Assembly: GCA_021773135.1 (NCBI GenBank)
Contig: JAJFKP010000036.1
Coordinates: 1 to 64,000, forward strand
Origin: Woeseiaceae bacterium
GTDB taxonomy: Bacteria; Pseudomonadota; Gammaproteobacteria; Steroidobacterales; Woeseiaceae
Length of the DNA: 64,000 bases
Direction: 5' to 3'
Every line of letters starts with the position of its first letter. The first letter of the stretch is position 1. Below are positions 48,484 to 57,055 of the stretch, piece by piece. Below the pieces are notes generated by a model that did not search any database, had not been told where the DNA came from, and worked only from the letters and a program-made list of their open reading frames with translations. Made by a program: the position numbers and the translations under genes.

Positions 48484-49503
48484 GTGGCAAGACAGAAATC
48501 CGCAATTGAATCGTGGCACGAAATGACCCAGGTGCCAACGTCAAGAGAGACTCTTACCGGCTACCTGCCACTGATTCTGAGTGCCGCGGGAGCTCTGGGC
48601 GTGGCGCCGTTTGTCGTTGTTCGTTGGATGGACGGTGACTGGGTGGTCGCCGCAATCGATACCGTAATCGTTACCGGCCTGGTGTCGCTCGGCGTTTATA
48701 TTTATTACACACGCCGGGTTCGCGGGGCGAGCATTGCGATTGCGCTACTTGCGATAATGGGCGCACTCATTACGATCTATATGCGCGGTGTGGAGCAGGT
48801 CTACTGGGCTTTTCCGGCTGTAATGGCTTGTTTTTATCTATTAAAGCCATTTGAAGCAGTCATTCTTGCACTGACATTCAACGTCCTTATTACGCCCGTT
48901 GTATTCCAGAACCTGGAAACCTTTACGGCCGGCACGGTGGCGGTCACGATTTTCGTTACCACCGCATTTGCTTTCGCGTTTAATTTCATCAATAACCGGC
49001 AGCAGGAAAAACTCTTGCGTCTCGCGACCAAGGATCCACTGACCGGTGCCGGCAACCGGCGTGCACTGCAGGTCAAGTTGGCAGAAGTGATTGGCTCTTT
49101 TGAGCGCAGCGGATTGCCGACGTCAATTATTGTCCTCGACCTGGACCACTTCAAAAAAGTAAATGATATTCACGGGCACGCCGTTGGTGATCAGATTCTT
49201 TGTGAAGTGGTCGGCATCGTCAATCTGAGAACGAGACTGAATGACAGCCTGTTCCGCATTGGCGGCGAGGAATTCGTGGTTGTCGCTGACGGACAGTGCC
49301 TGGGAGACGCCTGTCACCTTGCTGAACAGCTTCGCACGCTTGTCGAAGTCAATGAACTGGTCCCTAATAGTGCCGTCACCATTTCGCTGGGGGTGGCAGA
49401 AATTCGTGGCGGTGAATCGGCACAAAGCTGGCTATCCAGGGCGGATGACGCACTGTACCGGGCCAAACGCGAGGGACGTAACGTCATGCGCAAGGCAAGC
49501 TAG
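48484..49503 (+). CDS. Membrane-bound diguanylate cyclase
   Basis: The 339-residue protein has six transmembrane helices in the first 175 residues, then a GGDEF domain with LVLDLDHFKKVNDIHGHAVG-like metal site (read as IVLDLDHFKKVNDIHGH) and an intact GGEEF. RLND lies five residues before GGEEF and forms the inhibitory I-site (RxxD). It should make c-di-GMP and be product-inhibited. The membrane part carries no named sensor domain. The GTG at 48484 has AAAGGA about eight bases upstream. Confidence 0.88.
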   Translation: MARQKSAIESWHEMTQVPTSRETLTGYLPLILSAAGALGVAPFVVVRWMDGDWVVAAIDTVIVTGLVSLGVYIYYTRRVRGASIAIALLAIMGALITIYMRGVEQVYWAFPAVMACFYLLKPFEAVILALTFNVLITPVVFQNLETFTAGTVAVTIFVTTAFAFAFNFINNRQQEKLLRLATKDPLTGAGNRRALQVKLAEVIGSFERSGLPTSIIVLDLDHFKKVNDIHGHAVGDQILCEVVGIVNLRTRLNDSLFRIGGEEFVVVADGQCLGDACHLAEQLRTLVEVNELVPNSAVTISLGVAEIRGGESAQSWLSRADDALYRAKREGRNVMRKAS

Positions 49504-49508
49504 GCCTT

Positions 49509-50876
49509 TCAGGATTCAGTGTTTCGTCCGAAATCCTTCTCAGTAAACATTCGCGGCATTGCCGGATCTGAATGCCTGTCTACCAGCGACCTGACTTTTC
49601 CCACGAGTTTGACCCTGGTCGCTCGCAGGTCGGCAACTTCAGCGTCCAGTCGTGCGAGCCTTGCCACCGACACAATTGAAACGAGAATGCCCGCTTCCGC
49701 TTCGATAATGCGGACCGACGCCGTAAAACTCACGGTCAGCCCGATGACCACAGCGATTGCCCACCACGCACCAAATGACGTTCCGACGACAACGGCGATC
49801 GCAACATACAATGCTGGCAGAAGCAGGATAGTGGCAAAAACCTTGAGCGTTGCGACATCATCCATTTCGTAACTGAACCGCTCTCCAACTGTTGCGGCGA
49901 TCCAGCCGACCGGCAAATGCAGGAGTGCCCCCGGGATTGCCAGCGGCAACAGCGCCAGCATCCACAGCGCCCGGCCGACGATTTTCCTGAAAGCGTGGCC
50001 AGGCGTTAACGGTTGTCGCAGCTGATAATCCTTGAGTCCCAGCATGTCCAGTTGCGCCTGGTAATTTTCAAGTTCGTTTTGCAATTCGCTCAATTCCTGA
50101 TCGCTCGATGCCAGTTCGTACTGATCCAGGAAACGCCGATTCAGTTCAACGTATTGTGCGGGGCTTAGTACGACCGAAGATGGCTTGTACAGGCGCCTGG
50201 CCGTCTGGATGAATCGCAGTGTGCGCCAGTCGGGTGCATTCAGGGTGACCCCCTGCAGCGCAGACGCGAGTTCGTCAGTTAGCCTTCTGATGGTAGCCAG
50301 CTCTTCTTTTTGAAAACGCTCGACCCAGTCGTCGTCAATTTCAATGGGCGCGCCAAATTCGATCAGCACCTGGCTCCTGAATCGATGCCGATGCATGTAA
50401 TTCAGCCCACAGGGAACAATGCTGACACGCGACTTGCCCCTGGCAGTCACGGTTAGCGCGATTCGGGCAGCGCCCGTCTTCAGCCTGGCCATTCTGGATT
50501 CGGTATGACTGACACCCTCCGGAAAAATGCCCATACAATTTCCCGCCTCCATGATTTCATAGAGCCTGGCGAAGGCCTTTTGGTTGTCCACTTCGCCCTC
50601 GTGCTCTTCACGGCGATAGACGGGTACGGCGCCAGATGCATTCAGCAGCGGCACGAGAAGCCGATAGTTCCAGAGCTTTGCATTGACAACGAAATAAAGC
50701 GGCCAGCGACCGCAGGTCGCCGTCAGCAGCCAACCGTCCATCAGCGCATTCGGATGGTTGCCGGCAAAAATGACGGCGCCGTCTGCCGGAATATTTTCTG
50801 TGCCGATAATGTCGATCCGACGAAAGAAAGTGTTGGTAACGATCCGGATGACTACAATTATCAGTCGCTGCAGCAT
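49509..50876 (-). CDS. PlsC-type glycerolipid acyltransferase with C-terminal membrane segment
   Basis: This 455-residue protein has an N-terminal helix, then the acyltransferase block: NHPNALMD (catalytic His and Asp), VPVYRREEHEGE, and GIFPEGVSHTESRMARLKTG. Its second half holds several more membrane helices and a coiled-coil-like stretch (ELSELQNELENYQAQLDML). Relatives acylate glycerol-phosphate or lysophospholipids, some with other acceptors. It is the last gene of the amidoligase operon (14 bases after the ligase stop), so its acceptor might be the product of that system. That link is inferred from position. Confidence 0.84.
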   Translation of the reverse strand: MLQRLIIVVIRIVTNTFFRRIDIIGTENIPADGAVIFAGNHPNALMDGWLLTATCGRWPLYFVVNAKLWNYRLLVPLLNASGAVPVYRREEHEGEVDNQKAFARLYEIMEAGNCMGIFPEGVSHTESRMARLKTGAARIALTVTARGKSRVSIVPCGLNYMHRHRFRSQVLIEFGAPIEIDDDWVERFQKEELATIRRLTDELASALQGVTLNAPDWRTLRFIQTARRLYKPSSVVLSPAQYVELNRRFLDQYELASSDQELSELQNELENYQAQLDMLGLKDYQLRQPLTPGHAFRKIVGRALWMLALLPLAIPGALLHLPVGWIAATVGERFSYEMDDVATLKVFATILLLPALYVAIAVVVGTSFGAWWAIAVVIGLTVSFTASVRIIEAEAGILVSIVSVARLARLDAEVADLRATRVKLVGKVRSLVDRHSDPAMPRMFTEKDFGRNTES

Positions 50877-50890
50877 TGGTAAAAATCAGG

Positions 50891-51838
50891 CTAGTCGAAC
50901 ATCGACATTGCGCGATCAACGCGCATTTTGGGCCCCTGGCGGAAGCAGGCTGGGGAGAGGTCATCGATGGCACGAACACGCGGCGCCAGGCCACAATTGT
51001 TCGCTAACTGAATCGCCAATCCGGGGCGGGCGTTTAACTCCAGGAGTAATGGCCCATAGCGACGATCGACGACGATATCGGAGCCAAGATAGCCAAGACC
51101 GGTCGCATCTGCAGAGCGTGCCGCAATTTCAAGCAGGTCCGGCCAGTCCGCAATCTGGATCGACATCAAATCCGCGCCGGAGTCGGGATGTTCCACAACA
51201 CGGCGATTGAACTGCGTCGCGTTGACTGGCCGCCCACCGGAAATTGTCAGGCCGACGCCGATTGCGCCCTGATGAAGATTGGCTTTGCCGTCAGATTCTC
51301 GCGTCGACAGTCGCATCATGGACATTATCGGAAAGCCGCGATATACGATGACGCGGATATCAGGGACTCCTTCGACCGACAGATTTTTGTAGGCGGCATG
51401 CGGTTTAATCAGTTCTTCGATCACCGCCACATCCGGCGCGCCGCCGAGGCTGAAGAGTCCGGACAGGATGTTTGACGCATGCCGACGAATTTCATCGATT
51501 GTCAATTCCTGTCCATTTGCTTTGACGAAGAATTCTTCCCGGCGGGCGGCGATTACCAGTATGCCCTTGCCACCGCTACCTTTCGCCGGTTTTATCGCAA
51601 AACCATCGTGGGGTTCAAGGAATGGCTCGAGACCCTGTACATCATGCTGCGTACGCAGTGCACCGATGAGCGCCGGAGTTGCCAACCCCTTTTCCGCTGC
51701 CAGAAGTTTCGTTTTGAGTTTGTTGTCGACCAGCGGGTAAAGGTGCCGGGGATTCAAATCTCCAATCAGGCTGATGTTCCGCTGGTTCATGCCGACGATG
51801 CCCAGCTCGCGCAATCGGCGTGGCGATACGAACATCAT
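50891..51838 (-). CDS. RimK-like ATP-grasp alpha-L-glutamate ligase-like protein
   Basis: The 315-residue protein has the ATP-grasp pattern: KTKLLAAEKGLATPALIG, the glycine-rich phosphate loop FAIKPAKGSGGKGI, DIRVIVYRGFPIMSMMRL, and the metal-binding ELNARPGL. It is the amidoligase type that joins an amino acid, often glutamate, to an amine or a peptide. It starts one base after the 7TM gene stop (TAGgATG). In the same operon lie an inactive transglutaminase-7TM protein and a retropepsin-like lipoprotein, a set that recurs in many proteobacteria. The acceptor is unknown. Confidence 0.86.
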   Translation of the reverse strand: MMFVSPRRLRELGIVGMNQRNISLIGDLNPRHLYPLVDNKLKTKLLAAEKGLATPALIGALRTQHDVQGLEPFLEPHDGFAIKPAKGSGGKGILVIAARREEFFVKANGQELTIDEIRRHASNILSGLFSLGGAPDVAVIEELIKPHAAYKNLSVEGVPDIRVIVYRGFPIMSMMRLSTRESDGKANLHQGAIGVGLTISGGRPVNATQFNRRVVEHPDSGADLMSIQIADWPDLLEIAARSADATGLGYLGSDIVVDRRYGPLLLELNARPGLAIQLANNCGLAPRVRAIDDLSPACFRQGPKMRVDRAMSMFD

Positions 51839-51839
51839 C

Positions 51840-53378
51840 CTAGCTGTTCTGCTCAGCCAGCGATTTGAAGCGAACCAGCTCCAGCAATCGATAGCCCGTA
51901 TAACTTCCGAGCATCATGATCAGCGCCAGAACCACAAACTGGAGTCCGATAAAGTTAAACGTCAAATGTCGCACCAGCAGGCTGGTCATGGCCAGGTACG
52001 CCACGACCGCCGTGGCCAGACTGCCGAAACCCTGGATGGCCACTTCTCGCCAGCCTTCTTCCTCCCACAGGATAGACATTCGCTCCACGGTCCAGGAGAG
52101 AATGATCATCGGGAAAAAAGTGATCTTCAATCCTTCGGTAAGGCCCACTCTGAAACTGAATACGCTGAACAACGCAATGATGGTAATAACCGTTATGATC
52201 ACTGCGGATATCCTCGCCACCAGCAACAGATTCAGATGTGACATGTAACTCCTGATCATCAGTCCCACAGCAACGACGAGGAGGAAGCCAACCAGTCCTG
52301 TCGTCAGGCTGGTTTCGATAAATGCGAGTGCAATCAACACTGGCATGAACGTGCCGGATGTTCTCAATCCGACAAAAATTCGCAGCAGGCAAACGACCAG
52401 TGCGCCGATCGGCAACAGCAGGATAGTTTTAAACAAAGCCTGCTCTTCGATTGGCAGCGAATGAATGGAGAAGCCGAGCCAGTCGTTAGCTTCGCCGAGG
52501 GTGCCGGCCAGCTGACCGTAATTGGTCAGCTCCGACCGAATCATCGAGAAGCGCAGTTCGGAGCCTGTTCCGCCCGTTACGTCCAGCACATACCCCTGAG
52601 TAGGCTGCCAGAGTAGCAGCGGCAGATCCTCTTCACCGGCCTCAATACCAAGCGGAAAGACCTCGTTCTGTTCATCCGACCAGACGCGCAGCAGCGGCCT
52701 TAATCGCTGGCGCCGTCGGCCGTCCTCAAGTAGCAGTCCGTAAACAGTGGCAGCCGGAATGCCACGACTCTGCAACATATTGGCGAGCAGGTCTGTCAGG
52801 TTTTGATCGCCAACGACGTCCATCAGGAGCTGTTCATTCTGCCCGCGATCGCTGGCACGAAACTGACTAATCAGTTGGCGTGTCAATGAGAACGGATCGG
52901 CAGACAGGCTTACCGCCTGATCGAGTACCGCCTCGACGACCGAGGCGTAGGGTTCTTCCCAGCTCGGTGAGCGGATTTCCGGAGGTGGCTCGTCGTCGAA
53001 TTCACCGGCATCCCGCTGCAGGACCTCGGCGCGATAGTAGAGGACCTGCTGCCCGTCCGCCTGGCGCACGGTCCACTGCGCGGTGGGCTGTCCGCCTACA
53101 TTGACAAAGCTTAAGCCGTATCCCGGAGATGCTCCGTTCTCGTCAAGAATCGCAAAACCGGACTGATCTTTTGGTCGTCGCAGGTTGACCGTGACCGGTT
53201 CACCGCGCGCGAAAAACTGCACGCTGGCTTCAATTGACCAGATCGGTTTCTCGGTGCCGGGAATCCAGGGAACGTCATACACATAGTGTCTGTGAATGGA
53301 TTGCCCAAGACCCAGAACCAGCAGTACGCCGACGATCGCAAACAGCGAAAACTGGCGAGCCCGGGCACGTGATTTCAT
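51840..53378 (-). CDS. Inactive transglutaminase fused to a seven-helix membrane domain
   Basis: The 512-residue protein starts with one membrane helix. A periplasmic transglutaminase-like region (residues about 120-250, LSADPFSLTRQLISQFRASD, QSRGIPAATVYGLLLED) follows, without the catalytic Cys-His pair. About seven further transmembrane helices run from about residue 320 to 500 (LLPIGALVVCLLRIFVGL, FMPVLIALAFIETSLTTGL). This is the 7TM-TG family, often found with ATP-grasp ligases and retropepsins. It probably binds a peptide substrate at the membrane. It lies four bases after the retropepsin gene. Confidence 0.85.
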   Translation of the reverse strand: MKSRARARQFSLFAIVGVLLVLGLGQSIHRHYVYDVPWIPGTEKPIWSIEASVQFFARGEPVTVNLRRPKDQSGFAILDENGASPGYGLSFVNVGGQPTAQWTVRQADGQQVLYYRAEVLQRDAGEFDDEPPPEIRSPSWEEPYASVVEAVLDQAVSLSADPFSLTRQLISQFRASDRGQNEQLLMDVVGDQNLTDLLANMLQSRGIPAATVYGLLLEDGRRRQRLRPLLRVWSDEQNEVFPLGIEAGEEDLPLLLWQPTQGYVLDVTGGTGSELRFSMIRSELTNYGQLAGTLGEANDWLGFSIHSLPIEEQALFKTILLLPIGALVVCLLRIFVGLRTSGTFMPVLIALAFIETSLTTGLVGFLLVVAVGLMIRSYMSHLNLLLVARISAVIITVITIIALFSVFSFRVGLTEGLKITFFPMIILSWTVERMSILWEEEGWREVAIQGFGSLATAVVAYLAMTSLLVRHLTFNFIGLQFVVLALIMMLGSYTGYRLLELVRFKSLAEQNS

Positions 53379-53382
53379 AAAT

Positions 53383-54177
53383 TCATGATGCTTCGTAGCG
53401 CTCGTGGGTATACGACCTGGAGACGTCCAGGACGTAAATATCCATCAGGAACGCCCGACCAAGCAGCATCGGATAGGTCATATGACTCCGGTCCGTTAAG
53501 GCAAATTCTACGGTTTGCAGCTCTTCGCCGAGGCGAATGTCGAACTCGACCACGACCCGTCGTTCGGCTTCAACGGTTGCGGGCTGCCTGATCAGGATGA
53601 CGCGCTTGACCGGCAGTTCAAGTTCGATCTGCTCTTCTTCGGTATTGTGTTGAAATGTAAATCGTACCCAGTCTTCACTGTCGCGTTCGAATTCGACTAT
53701 GTCGCTGGCACTCAGAGAGGACGTTTCGGCACCGCTATCGACTCGCGCCCTATAATGCCGGCCCGGCGGTTCCAGGTAGAGCCACTCGATTGCGCCGATG
53801 ATTTCCTTGTTGCCGATATCGCCGACTGAAACAGCGGGACACTCCTGAATCTGCGGCGGCGGCACTGGCCGCCGAATCTGATCCAGCGCCTCCTCGATTC
53901 GCGCCGCCTGACCCGCCAGCGTTTGGTCAAGATCACTCAACAGCGGATGCGTTTCATCCAGTCGGGTAAGCAGCAGTTCGCACGCATCCGGTACCGACTC
54001 TTTAAGGTCCTCAGGCGGTCCGACGACAACCGGGACGACTGGAACAATGTCGACCGCCGCCTCATCGTCGCCGGAATCCAAATTCGGACCCTGTGAGGCG
54101 CAGCCGGCAACTATTGCCATGGACAGCGGTACCAGCAAGCTGACAGATGTTCGAAGGGAGTTTTCCTGTGACTTCAT
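53383..54177 (-). CDS. Retropepsin-like lipoprotein (RimK-associated protease family)
   Basis: The 264-residue product has a lipoprotein signal (LVPLSMAIVAGCASQ), a linker with a coiled-coil part, and a C-terminal retropepsin-like domain. DSGAETSSL is the aspartic-protease signature and YPMLLGRAFLMDIYVLDV the matching psi-loop. Many such genes are annotated as zinc proteases, but the visible motif is aspartic. It heads the four-gene operon with spacings of 4, 1 and 14 bases. The likely job is to cut or trim the product of the downstream ligase in the periplasm. Confidence 0.84.
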   Translation of the reverse strand: MKSQENSLRTSVSLLVPLSMAIVAGCASQGPNLDSGDDEAAVDIVPVVPVVVGPPEDLKESVPDACELLLTRLDETHPLLSDLDQTLAGQAARIEEALDQIRRPVPPPQIQECPAVSVGDIGNKEIIGAIEWLYLEPPGRHYRARVDSGAETSSLSASDIVEFERDSEDWVRFTFQHNTEEEQIELELPVKRVILIRQPATVEAERRVVVEFDIRLGEELQTVEFALTDRSHMTYPMLLGRAFLMDIYVLDVSRSYTHERYEAS

Positions 54178-54457: not shown

Positions 54458-55807
54458 TCATCTGCTCTTTAGCAATTTTCCCTGTACCCAAACCTGTGCA
54501 ATGTTACGCCTGTCTGCGTTATAGATAATTTTTTGTAAAATGTCCTCCGCCGTATCCAGGTCATCCCAGGTCGTCAGGTTGCTATCCGGCAGTTCCGTGT
54601 CGACCACAATTGCGTCAAACCGGTAACCGGCCGAGATTTGACCAATCTGCAGATCAAGCGCCCTTGCGCCACCCACGGTGGCCATCCAGAACGCTTCGAG
54701 GTAGTCGATTCTTGAGTCCGGCATGCCGCGAGTGGCGGCGTCAGCATTGGCATCGACTCCCTCTTCAAGTGACCGCGAGGCGTTCACAGCCGCCTGGCAG
54801 TTGCTGAGAATGTCGGCGCGTGGCCCGCCCGAGATATCGGTGCCGAGGCCCACCGTTAGTCCAGCATCAAGGGCTTTTCGGGCGGGAAAGACCGCGTTGG
54901 AGAAATAGATGTTCGACAAAGGGCAGTGGGCGATGCCGCACTCCCTGTCCCTGATCGTGGTCATGTCCGCCGGGCTGATAAGATTTGCGTGCGCCAGAAC
55001 GGTTTTGTCGGTCAGCAAGCCGAATTGATCGAGGCTTTGGGTATCGTTTAAGCCGTGTCGATCGAGCACATAGTCGTGTTCCCAATCGCTCTCCGAACAA
55101 TGCGTCTGCACGTGACAGGCGTATTCCTGCGCGATATTCCCCAGTCCAAGCAGCGCTTCATCAGTGCAGCTGGGGATAAAGCGCGGCGTTACCGCCGGTA
55201 ACACCCGATCTGAATCCTTGCCGCCGATGCCGCTGACGTAATCTACAAACGCTCTCGTTTCATCGAGCGACACCGCGCATGATTCATCACGGTAGAAATC
55301 AGGGCATTGGTCGGGATTATCCATAACGACTTTGCCGACGATGGCACGCTGCCCCTGCTCCTGACAGACGTCGGCAAGTAACTTGGTTGCCTCAAGGTGA
55401 ATGGTGCCGAAATACATTACGGTCGTCGTGCCGTTTGCCAGCAGGTTTTCGACCAGGGATGTGTAAACGGTGCGCGCGAATCCAAGGTCCGCATAACGAG
55501 CTTCTAGCGGAAATGTGTATTGTTGCAGCCAGTCGTATAGCGGCAGGTGCAAAGCTTTGCCGAGCTGCGGCCACTGCGGCGCGTGAACGTGCAGATCAAC
55601 CAGTCCCGGCAGAAGGTATTGTCCCCGTTGCAGTTCGATAAGCTGATCATCGGCTCGAGCCGCAGCCAGGCAGGTTTCGTATTCACCCGATTCAGTTCGA
55701 TGAACATGCAAGATCTGCCCGTCGTCGTCGACAGCTACCAGGCCGTCATGGATGATTTCGACACTACCGAGAACCGGCGTGTGAATAATAGTGCCTTTAA
55801 CAATCAT
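54458..55807 (-). CDS. guaD: Guanine deaminase
   Basis: This 449-residue amidohydrolase has the metal-binding PGLVDLHVHAPQ near residue 70, HVQTHCSES, VLAHANLI, AHCPLSNIYFSN and the catalytic GLGTDISGG. The APQWPQLG segment after the HxH motif is typical of GuaD, and the length fits. It converts guanine to xanthine with release of ammonia, in the cytosol, with zinc. It is on the same strand as the ammonia-lyase gene, 84 bases downstream of it, suggesting joint nitrogen salvage. A non-coding gap of 280 bases separates it from the retropepsin operon; I see no gene or clear site there. Confidence 0.9.
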   Translation of the reverse strand: MIVKGTIIHTPVLGSVEIIHDGLVAVDDDGQILHVHRTESGEYETCLAAARADDQLIELQRGQYLLPGLVDLHVHAPQWPQLGKALHLPLYDWLQQYTFPLEARYADLGFARTVYTSLVENLLANGTTTVMYFGTIHLEATKLLADVCQEQGQRAIVGKVVMDNPDQCPDFYRDESCAVSLDETRAFVDYVSGIGGKDSDRVLPAVTPRFIPSCTDEALLGLGNIAQEYACHVQTHCSESDWEHDYVLDRHGLNDTQSLDQFGLLTDKTVLAHANLISPADMTTIRDRECGIAHCPLSNIYFSNAVFPARKALDAGLTVGLGTDISGGPRADILSNCQAAVNASRSLEEGVDANADAATRGMPDSRIDYLEAFWMATVGGARALDLQIGQISAGYRFDAIVVDTELPDSNLTTWDDLDTAEDILQKIIYNADRRNIAQVWVQGKLLKSR

Positions 55808-55891
55808 CGCATACGTCTAAACCGGCACAACAATTTCATCGCTATCGCAAGCTGGTTACCATTTGCCGGAAATATTAGCACGCGCATCTTT

Positions 55892-57055
55892 TTAAGCCGG
55901 AAAACCGGTCATGCGTTGGTAGACAGCAGGGTCTGTCGCACCTTCGGTTCCGAGAACCAGAACCCGGCTATCTGCCGTCAGGTTCAGCGCTTTCGACAGG
56001 CTGTCAATCTGTCGTGCGGCAATAAATGCCGCAAGGCCGGCAACCGCAGATTCGCCTGCCACGACCGCCGCATCTCCAAATGGTGAATCACGTAACATTG
56101 TCATTGTTGGTGCTACGATCGAATCTGCAATCGTTACAAAGTCATCCGCACGACGCTGCAGCACTGGCCACGCTACCGAGGACACTTCGCCGCAGGAAAG
56201 TCCCGCCATAAGCGTTTCTTGCGAAATCTCGACCTTTGTTGGCGTGTTGTTGCTGGCACTTACGAAAAGGCACGGTGCGAGTTCAGGCTCCACAACAATC
56301 ACCCGCGGTGCGCGATCTTCGCAGGCAAGTCGCAAGCACTCGCAAACCGTTGCCGCGAGGCCGCCAACACCGCCCTGGACGAATACGTGTGTTGGGATAT
56401 TATCCGCAAACTGCTCGACGAGCTCCGTAAGCATGACCGAATAGCCGAGCATTACAGTCCTCGCGACGTCACTACCTGAACCCGCATAGGTCGTGTCAGA
56501 GACGACGGTCCAGCCGTTCTCCCTTGCAGCCTGGTAACAAATGCGCACCGAATCATCGTAGTTACCGTCGACGCGCACGACCTCGGCGCCATGGTCCCGC
56601 AGCGCCTGTTCTCTGCCAGCGCTGACCTCAGCATGGATATAAATAACAGCACGATGACCGTGTTCCCTGGCACCCCAGGCGACGGAGCGCCCATGATTTC
56701 CGTCGGTTGCGGTCGTGACCGTCAGCGCTGCGGGCTTTGTGCCAGGTGCATGTGCCAATTGACTCACAGCGAATGCACCGCCAAGTGCTTTAAAACTGCC
56801 GAGTCCGAAACGATTCGCCTCGTCCTTATACAGAATGTCTTGCACGTGCAACGCTTTCGCGAGGCCTGGCAAATTCAGCAGCGGTGTCGGACAGTACCCA
56901 GGCCAGGCTGAAATGCACCTGTGACCATGTACTAACGCTTGTTTCGAAAAGAGAGGCGTGGTTTCGCTTTGCTCGTGCGCTATGCTCGTGCGCGACGAAT
57001 TACTCACGTGTTTCACCACGGGGCCAGAGAAAGCCACAAACGCGTCTTGAATCAC
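55892..57055 (-). CDS. dpaL: Diaminopropionate ammonia-lyase (YgeX-like)
   Basis: The 387-residue fold-II PLP enzyme has ETTPLFSKQAL near the N-terminus, YKDEANRFGLGSFKALGGA with the PLP Lys and active-site Asp nearby, TATDGNHGRSVAWGA, and FVQGGVGGLAATVCE for phosphate binding. These agree with E. coli DAPAL, which turns 2,3-diaminopropionate into pyruvate and two ammonia. I accept the GTG at 57055 because TGAGGA lies about five bases upstream. It forms a probable unit with guanine deaminase. Confidence 0.88.
   Translation of the reverse strand: MIQDAFVAFSGPVVKHVSNSSRTSIAHEQSETTPLFSKQALVHGHRCISAWPGYCPTPLLNLPGLAKALHVQDILYKDEANRFGLGSFKALGGAFAVSQLAHAPGTKPAALTVTTATDGNHGRSVAWGAREHGHRAVIYIHAEVSAGREQALRDHGAEVVRVDGNYDDSVRICYQAARENGWTVVSDTTYAGSGSDVARTVMLGYSVMLTELVEQFADNIPTHVFVQGGVGGLAATVCECLRLACEDRAPRVIVVEPELAPCLFVSASNNTPTKVEISQETLMAGLSCGEVSSVAWPVLQRRADDFVTIADSIVAPTMTMLRDSPFGDAAVVAGESAVAGLAAFIAARQIDSLSKALNLTADSRVLVLGTEGATDPAVYQRMTGFPA

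Follow-up and report, generated by a model that had tools for sequence, protein, structure and literature searches.

Genetic work on Pseudomonas aeruginosa published in 2025 (PMC12239564) described a three-gene system named rloABC, which is the closest described counterpart of a run of four genes on the minus strand of a 64,000-nucleotide stretch from a Woeseiaceae bacterium (GCA_021773135.1, contig JAJFKP010000036.1, positions 1 to 64,000), the whole of which is referred to here as the window. In that species three redundant RloA proteins are needed for growth without salt, and in vitro RloA cleaves stretches of at least eight glutamates. It has four pseudosymmetric contacts to glutamate (K46, R92, R114 and R137), of which R114 and R137 are the most important in vitro and are required in vivo. 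Wall-type defects are seen in triple rloA mutants, which are suppressed by loss of rloB or rloC, and the rlo genes affect biofilm, cell shape, survival at low salt and sensitivity to antibiotics that target the wall (PMC12239564). An earlier suppressor screen hit the same operon as PA1768-PA1766 (PMC7314104), and Shewanella releases more vesicles once it has lost a gene whose annotation reads inactive transglutaminase with seven transmembrane (TM) helices (PMC12096838). A second system of relevance is that of RimK, which with RimB makes free poly-alpha-L-glutamate of up to 28 units (PMC11957791, 2025).

The first three genes of the run are, judged by their families and order, a divergent rloABC operon, that is a known system in a new variant, together with a testable lead to a missing part. 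The reading favoured here, which is held to be somewhat better than an even bet, is that RloC writes glutamate, RloB presents or moves the product and RloA, along with an exported AstE/AspA-family amidohydrolase where one is present, erases it in the periplasm. This reading draws on the family matches, the rloA-rloB-rloC order, the four arginine contacts of RloA, the match of RloC to TIGR02291, the making of polyglutamate by RimK with RimB and the co-occurrence of AstE with RloB. The families, gene order, lipobox motif, conservation of contact residues and co-occurrence were all computed here.

As far as the published description of P. aeruginosa rloABC goes, the window shares with it the gene order, the families (including the ATP-grasp protein and the inactive transglutaminase with a 7TM domain), the active-site motif, the polyglutamate contact residues and the export signal of RloA. 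It differs in that the window RloA has a lipobox, 121 residues between the lipobox cysteine and the catalytic aspartate and no cysteine in the catalytic domain, in that the proteins score below the NCBIfam RloA1-3 and RloB cut-offs, in that plsC follows rloC, and in that the genome has one RloA and one RimB-like protein rather than three RloAs. With RimB-RimK the window system shares the pairing of a retropepsin with an ATP-grasp protein and the glutamate contacts, whereas RimB is cytosolic, RimK is of another ATP-grasp subfamily and there is no RloB. A cytosolic retropepsin without a signal beside a RimK-type ligase is not what is found in the window, where RloA has its lipobox and RloC reaches only 17 of the 331 bits of the RimK model PRK10446; the NCBIfam RimB model matches the window RloA well below its cut-off.

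The rloABC operon and its putative lipoprotein protease

The four open reading frames (ORFs) run from 54177 to 49509, encode proteins of 264, 512, 315 and 455 aa and are separated by 4, 1 and 14 bases. A preliminary description, made from the sequence letters, had proposed a four-gene operon here. Its coordinates and spacing were exactly confirmed and the motifs DSGAETSS and ELNARPGL that it picked out are both in the translations; it did not mention that the three-gene system was already named, with genetics and in vitro protease data from P. aeruginosa. Families were called with Pfam and NCBIfam profiles, scores being read against curated cut-offs, and the window has rloA, rloB and rloC in that order on one strand, the arrangement by which an Rlo system is recognised. 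The order recurs in all 80 named loci, which were taken as the best of the 581 RloB matches confirmed, and in 58 of the 78 from a class-level sample, locus genes having been found with profiles started from the window proteins, so the grouping of the first three genes is not chance, and the co-occurrence of the retropepsin, inactive transglutaminase-7TM and ATP-grasp families in one operon is as the preliminary description had it. The class sample comprises 369 genomes, of which 79 have RloB (including G174, which is below the Pfam cut-off), and the 78 loci come from these 79 without the window, G174 and G082; G130 and G396 contribute two each.

The rloA-like gene (53383..54177, minus strand) encodes a retropepsin-like aspartic protease of 264 aa, predicted to be exported, which matches PF05618, a family that Pfam labels Zn_protease, at 131 bits against a cut-off of 27 and misses the NCBIfam cut-offs of RloA3 (106.5 of 210 bits), RloA2 (88.1 of 250) and RloA1 (78.1 of 280). 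The D[TS]GA motif and export signal of such a retropepsin are present as D147-SGA, within the DSGAETSS active-site motif (53716..53739, minus strand), and as a VAGC lipobox-type motif with Cys26 (codon at 54100..54102, minus strand). An alignment of 32 rows, 31 of them from the 80 named loci and one from the window, shows the lipobox cysteine and the catalytic Asp147 in all 32, and the residue that follows the cysteine is Asp in none. Under the E. coli sorting rule a residue other than Asp at this place sends a lipoprotein to the outer membrane, and because of this RloA is probably tethered there, an address read from the motif. The predicted layout is of Cys26, a helical arm at residues 55-101 and a catalytic domain at about 122-260; the AlphaFold model (mean pLDDT 81) has the helix and a well predicted catalytic domain, with the stretch after the lipobox poorly predicted.

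It is apparent that the lipobox is not peculiar to the window, the pattern being present in six of six RloAs of the window's type, in 70 of the 80 named RloAs and in 11 of 60 from the class sample. The disulfide-forming cysteine pair of the soluble periplasmic RloA is absent from the window protein, which has no cysteine in its catalytic domain, as is the case in all 32 lipoprotein-type rows. Among class-sample RloAs without a lipobox 45 of 49 have two or more cysteines after the active-site motif, whereas nine of ten with a lipobox have fewer than two (one further row has no motif), and the disulfide-bearing published form and the lipid-tethered form look like two alternative designs. Alignment to 9g58 and counting from the catalytic Asp place K46, R92, R114 and R137 of P. 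aeruginosa RloA at R145, R192, R207 and R230 of the window protein, so that the contacts to polyglutamate are kept with Arg in place of K46, and none of the 32 rows lacks R145, D147, R192, R207 or R230. This lipoprotein clade of RloA, which lacks the cysteine pair but retains all four polyglutamate contacts, looks new.

The rloB-like gene (51840..53378, minus strand) encodes 512 aa with matches to PF14400 (175 bits against 25; residues 29-187) and PF14402 (343 bits against 25; residues 264-507, the 7TM_transglut domain at 51858..52589, minus strand), which gives a predicted layout of an N-terminal TM segment, a hydrophobic stretch at residues 10-28 that is additional to the 7TM domain, followed by a periplasmic inactive transglutaminase fold and the 7TM domain itself. 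The score with the NCBIfam RloB model NF052267 is 282 of 900 bits, below the cut-off. A scan of the sequence finds a sole cysteine, C330, and since this is in the membrane part the transglutaminase domain has none, as expected of an inactive transglutaminase with a 7TM domain; an active transglutaminase was rejected on this ground. Thus the Cys-less domain of the preliminary description stands, whilst its seven helices rest on the Pfam family, a simple hydropathy scan at its threshold having seen five segments in the 7TM part. Compared with solved structures by sequence RloB has weak matches only, the best being a bacterial transglutaminase at E 0.03. With a structure model of RloB (pLDDT 78.5, pTM 0.53) the best Foldseek match is 3isr at E 1.3e-7, and the matches at E < 0.001 are three chains of this cysteine-protease-type entry, with a query TM-score of 0.3; at that threshold there is none for the membrane part. 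After RloB in a distant subfamily (loci L172-L179, PF14402 at about 140-190 bits) come a TPR protein and a gene that, judged by eye, resembles an outer-membrane barrel.

The rloC-like gene (50891..51838, minus strand) encodes an ATP-grasp protein of 315 aa that passes TIGR02291, the alpha-L-glutamate-ligase-like family, at 389.5 bits over 314.2, and by these family assignments the operon has parts on either side of the inner membrane, as had been supposed. Its best Pfam match is PF14397 (281 bits against 31), which Pfam labels as associated with sugar transfer. This label would suit a different view, that RloC ligates another amino acid or uses a sugar-bound acceptor, the product being a decoration of an envelope glycan or of peptidoglycan and the cleavage of polyglutamate by RloA being confined to the test tube. 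The wall-type defects of the P. aeruginosa triple mutants (PMC12239564) and the TPR and barrel-like neighbours of the distant RloB relatives would suit it too. It is thought unlikely, however, as rescue in vivo needs the glutamate-binding residues in the published work (PMC12239564), and the same residues are fixed in all 32 lipoprotein-type RloAs.

An exported AstE/AspA-family amidohydrolase

The commonest family beside rlo in the class loci is an amidohydrolase of the AstE/AspA type, found in 13 of 78 loci and in 0 of 80 named loci. PF24827 is present in 8 of the 33 close same-strand genes that follow rloC in the class sample, and an exported AstE is the next same-strand gene after rloC in nine class loci. 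By eye, 12 of the 13 rlo-side relatives have a signal-like or long N-terminus, the other being a short relative beside rim genes. The window genome carries an exported copy of its own, unlinked to rlo. Across nine aligned exported proteins, with the window copy included, the HGDE, DxHTG and ExG residues are invariant, and the most hydrophobic 15 residues of the N-terminus score 1.56-2.31, compared with 1.34 in a rimB-linked relative that has no N-terminal extension. The exported clade shares the PF24827 catalytic domain with known AstE/AspA amidohydrolases (succinylglutamate desuccinylase, aspartoacylase) but differs from them in its N-terminal extension with a hydrophobic segment and in tracking RloB; two exported members that were tested reach none of the NCBIfam cut-offs.

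The extent of this tracking was judged in two samples, with the limit of the exported clade set at gaps in score (376 to 286 bits in an order-level sample of 99 genomes, 453 to 312 bits in the class sample). In the order sample 55 genomes have an RloB match, the window genome counted, and with the window's unlinked AstE as query the exported clade is found in 47 of these 55 compared with 3 of 44 without RloB, or by genus in 14 of 16 compared with 1 of 18, so that 47 of 50 carriers have RloB. Carriers in the class sample number 20, spread over 14 families and all above 450 bits, the next scorer being at 312; they make up 20 of the 79 genomes with RloB and 0 of the 290 without, and all 20 carriers have RloB when 79 of 369 genomes do overall. 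Because eight of the nine rows of the profile came from rlo neighbours the nine training genomes were removed, which leaves 11 of 70 compared with 0 of 290, and RloB in 11 of 11 carriers. There are 16 relatives with RloB and no PF05618 match and 15 of them carry the exported AstE, and only two of the 55 have neither an RloB-adjacent RloA nor an exported AstE, these being G028 (67% complete) and G089 (90%).

This nesting within RloB-bearing genomes suggests that the exported amidohydrolase belongs to the Rlo pathway, a link that looks new. A literature search found no paper linking an AstE-family enzyme or an acyltransferase to rlo, an earlier printed remark not being excluded, and in the main text of PMC12239564 the words desuccinylase, aspartoacylase, carboxypeptidase, acyltransferase and lipoprotein do not occur.

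It could be that exported AstE tracks RloB by the shared ancestry of the sampled lineages alone, with no shared pathway. One family dominates the order sample, the exported AstE of the class sample reaches 14 families but only a quarter of the RloB-bearing genomes, and in one family it is carried by G250 and G360 but not by G455, which has RloB. Shared ancestry alone is nonetheless regarded as an improbable explanation, given that the gene directly follows rloC in nine class loci, that it occurs in none of the 290 class genomes without RloB and that some contrasts within families agree, with G352 and G447 having both and G240 neither, G082 both and G069 neither, and G125 both and G270 neither. 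A more specific proposal is that exported AstE is an unrecognised component of Rlo which, alone or with RloA, removes glutamates from an RloC product displayed by RloB; this is put forward tentatively, as a real possibility that falls short of being probable. The known substrates of AstE and AspA enzymes are N-acylated acidic amino acids, a further point against a glycan or another amino acid as the product of RloC.

A parallel exists in the cytosol. On contig C16 of the window genome (L279:4656-7426) three genes stand side by side: rimB, whose 157-aa product is without a lipobox, one for an AstE relative of 341 aa, and rimK, which encodes 393 aa. There is a second RimK on contig C40 (L280). 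The RimB model is the best match of this rimB product, at 123 of 200 bits and so below the cut-off. Where a retropepsin is found in the relatives at places other than just upstream of rloB, an AstE relative is within 2.5 kb in 39 of 46 cases. Thus a set of ligase, endoprotease and amidohydrolase is found repeatedly on either side of the membrane; a literature search found no earlier remark on this, a mention in print not being excluded. In G047 (contig C3) and G055 (contig C15) a retropepsin match occurs about 1 kb after RloB, in G047 with an AstE relative as well, which is possibly a rim locus beside an rlo locus.

The plsC gene and the origin of the operon

The fourth gene (49509..50876, minus strand) encodes a PlsC-like acyltransferase of 455 aa (PF01553, 62 bits against 23), which has PF01553 and the HPNALMD and FPEG motifs in common with PlsC-type 1-acylglycerol-3-phosphate acyltransferases and differs from them in scoring 49.7 bits with TIGR00530, under the cut-off of 103, and in its length, with C-terminal TM segments by hydropathy. 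No solved structure matches it by sequence at E 0.1. A plsC gene near rlo is found only in seven genomes of one genus, all with the window's operon type, directly after rloC in five (G000, G001, G007, G010 and G011) and with one gene of 428-459 aa in between in G004 and G008. The spacing is 14 bases in the window and 12 in G001, G007 and G011, with a 4-base overlap in G010, and because of this co-transcription of plsC is likely. The intervening gene in two relatives (L057:5646-6932, L058:8247-9626) encodes a proline-rich putative lipoprotein with repeated CATxGCH-type motifs.

Such spacing might be expected if all four genes formed a lipid-modifying system, in which PlsC would acylate a glycerol or amino-acid headgroup, RloC ligate glutamate to the resulting lipid, RloB flip this lipid and RloA trim it, and in the order sample, where the full-length subfamily occurs in 22 of 99 genomes, 17 of the 22 carriers have RloB (a weak association, p 0.03). 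A system of this kind is nevertheless very improbable. The window's PlsC subfamily is found in 0 of 158 other rlo loci (80 named and 78 from the class sample), and in the class sample RloB accompanies it in 6 of 17 genomes (p 0.22), on which counts PlsC was rejected as a core or regular part of Rlo. Nor was an rlo gene found in the fetched stretch of the other 15 plsC loci, some of these stretches being short from contig ends, and in two genomes an unrelated gene separates rloC from plsC. Among the 25 families listed, of 82, for the 33 close same-strand genes after rloC there is no second PF01553 member, and one at the window's E-value would rank within the 25. Co-occurrence in other genomes, which the preliminary description had named as a test of its four-gene operon, is therefore passed by the first three genes and failed by plsC. 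Most likely PlsC is a neighbour beside which the operon landed, co-transcribed with it and not core to it.

As to where the operon came from, the window genome has one RloB, and RloBs of the window's type are near-complete in it and in five others of its genus (75-85% identity), and in pieces in a seventh, G010; complete RloBs elsewhere in the family are only 36-39% identical to that of the window. In a quick tree of 126 RloBs, which takes in 27 of the 80 named loci and has long branches elsewhere, RloBs of the window's type sit next to those of Oceanobacter and Thalassolituus (support 99). The other type of the family is placed apart from them, and G009, a member of the window's genus, groups with that other type. 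From this placement the full rloABC was most likely gained by transfer in the window lineage. At 12 inspected loci of the family's other type RloC is present in 11 and an adjacent RloA in none; several such loci (L068, L071, L074, L080 and others), with RloC, are beside pepP- and ubiH-like genes, named by eye.

Around the operon, a GGDEF diguanylate cyclase gene (window 48484-49503) is convergent to plsC and ends 5 bases from its end, and upstream of rloA are genes of the guanine deaminase and diaminopropionate ammonia-lyase types (window 54458-57055). Fetched relatives that carry the window's operon type have a guanine deaminase gene near rlo as well.

A possible glutamylation cycle in the envelope

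If rloABC acts as favoured here, RloC, a cytosolic ATP-grasp protein, would most likely add glutamates to an acceptor or make a free chain of them, and RloB would present or move the product of RloC at the inner membrane. RloA, which its lipid and its long helical arm would tether to the outer membrane, would then cut the glutamate-rich product in the periplasm. The exported zinc amidohydrolase of the AstE/AspA type is a probable second eraser in some genomes, the window genome included, and could trim glutamates from the carboxyl end. The balance of writing and erasing would affect wall integrity, and the arrangement as a whole would mirror in the envelope the cytosolic rimK-rimB-astE set, which is also present in the window genome. 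The catalytic steps are all inferred, except for the cleavage of polyglutamate by RloA, which is known in vitro for the P. aeruginosa protein.

A number of points weigh against this reading. No Rlo substrate or product has been observed, and the match of RloC to RimK structures by sequence is weak (E 0.007-0.02). The 16 of 55 RloB-bearing relatives without any PF05618 match indicate that RloA is not always needed, and the notion of a retropepsin as a constant requirement of RloB and RloC was not upheld. The export of AstE was judged by hydropathy and by eye and not with a signal-peptide predictor. In the order sample eight genomes have RloB without an exported AstE and three have the exported AstE without RloB, and since 59 of 79 RloB-bearing genomes in the class sample are without it, as are 18 of the 20 named genomes with rloABC, the exported AstE is not obligatory. 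In Marinibactrum halimedae both rloABC and the exported AstE are found. The genomes of the samples are also not phylogenetically independent, and association is not function.

Should the exported AstE be such a component of Rlo, the system would be a trans-envelope cycle of writing and erasing glutamylation, the extracytoplasmic twin of rimK-rimB-astE, and its protease would exist in soluble and outer-membrane-tethered forms. The lipoprotein form suggests where cutting takes place, at arm's length from the outer membrane. That the AstE partner is almost confined to genomes with RloB hints at the nature of the product, which may be an N-acylated or peptide-bound acidic amino acid, and would make the exported AstE a reagent for finding the Rlo product. 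With its single envelope retropepsin the window genome is free of the redundancy by which three RloAs masked the phenotype in Pseudomonas.

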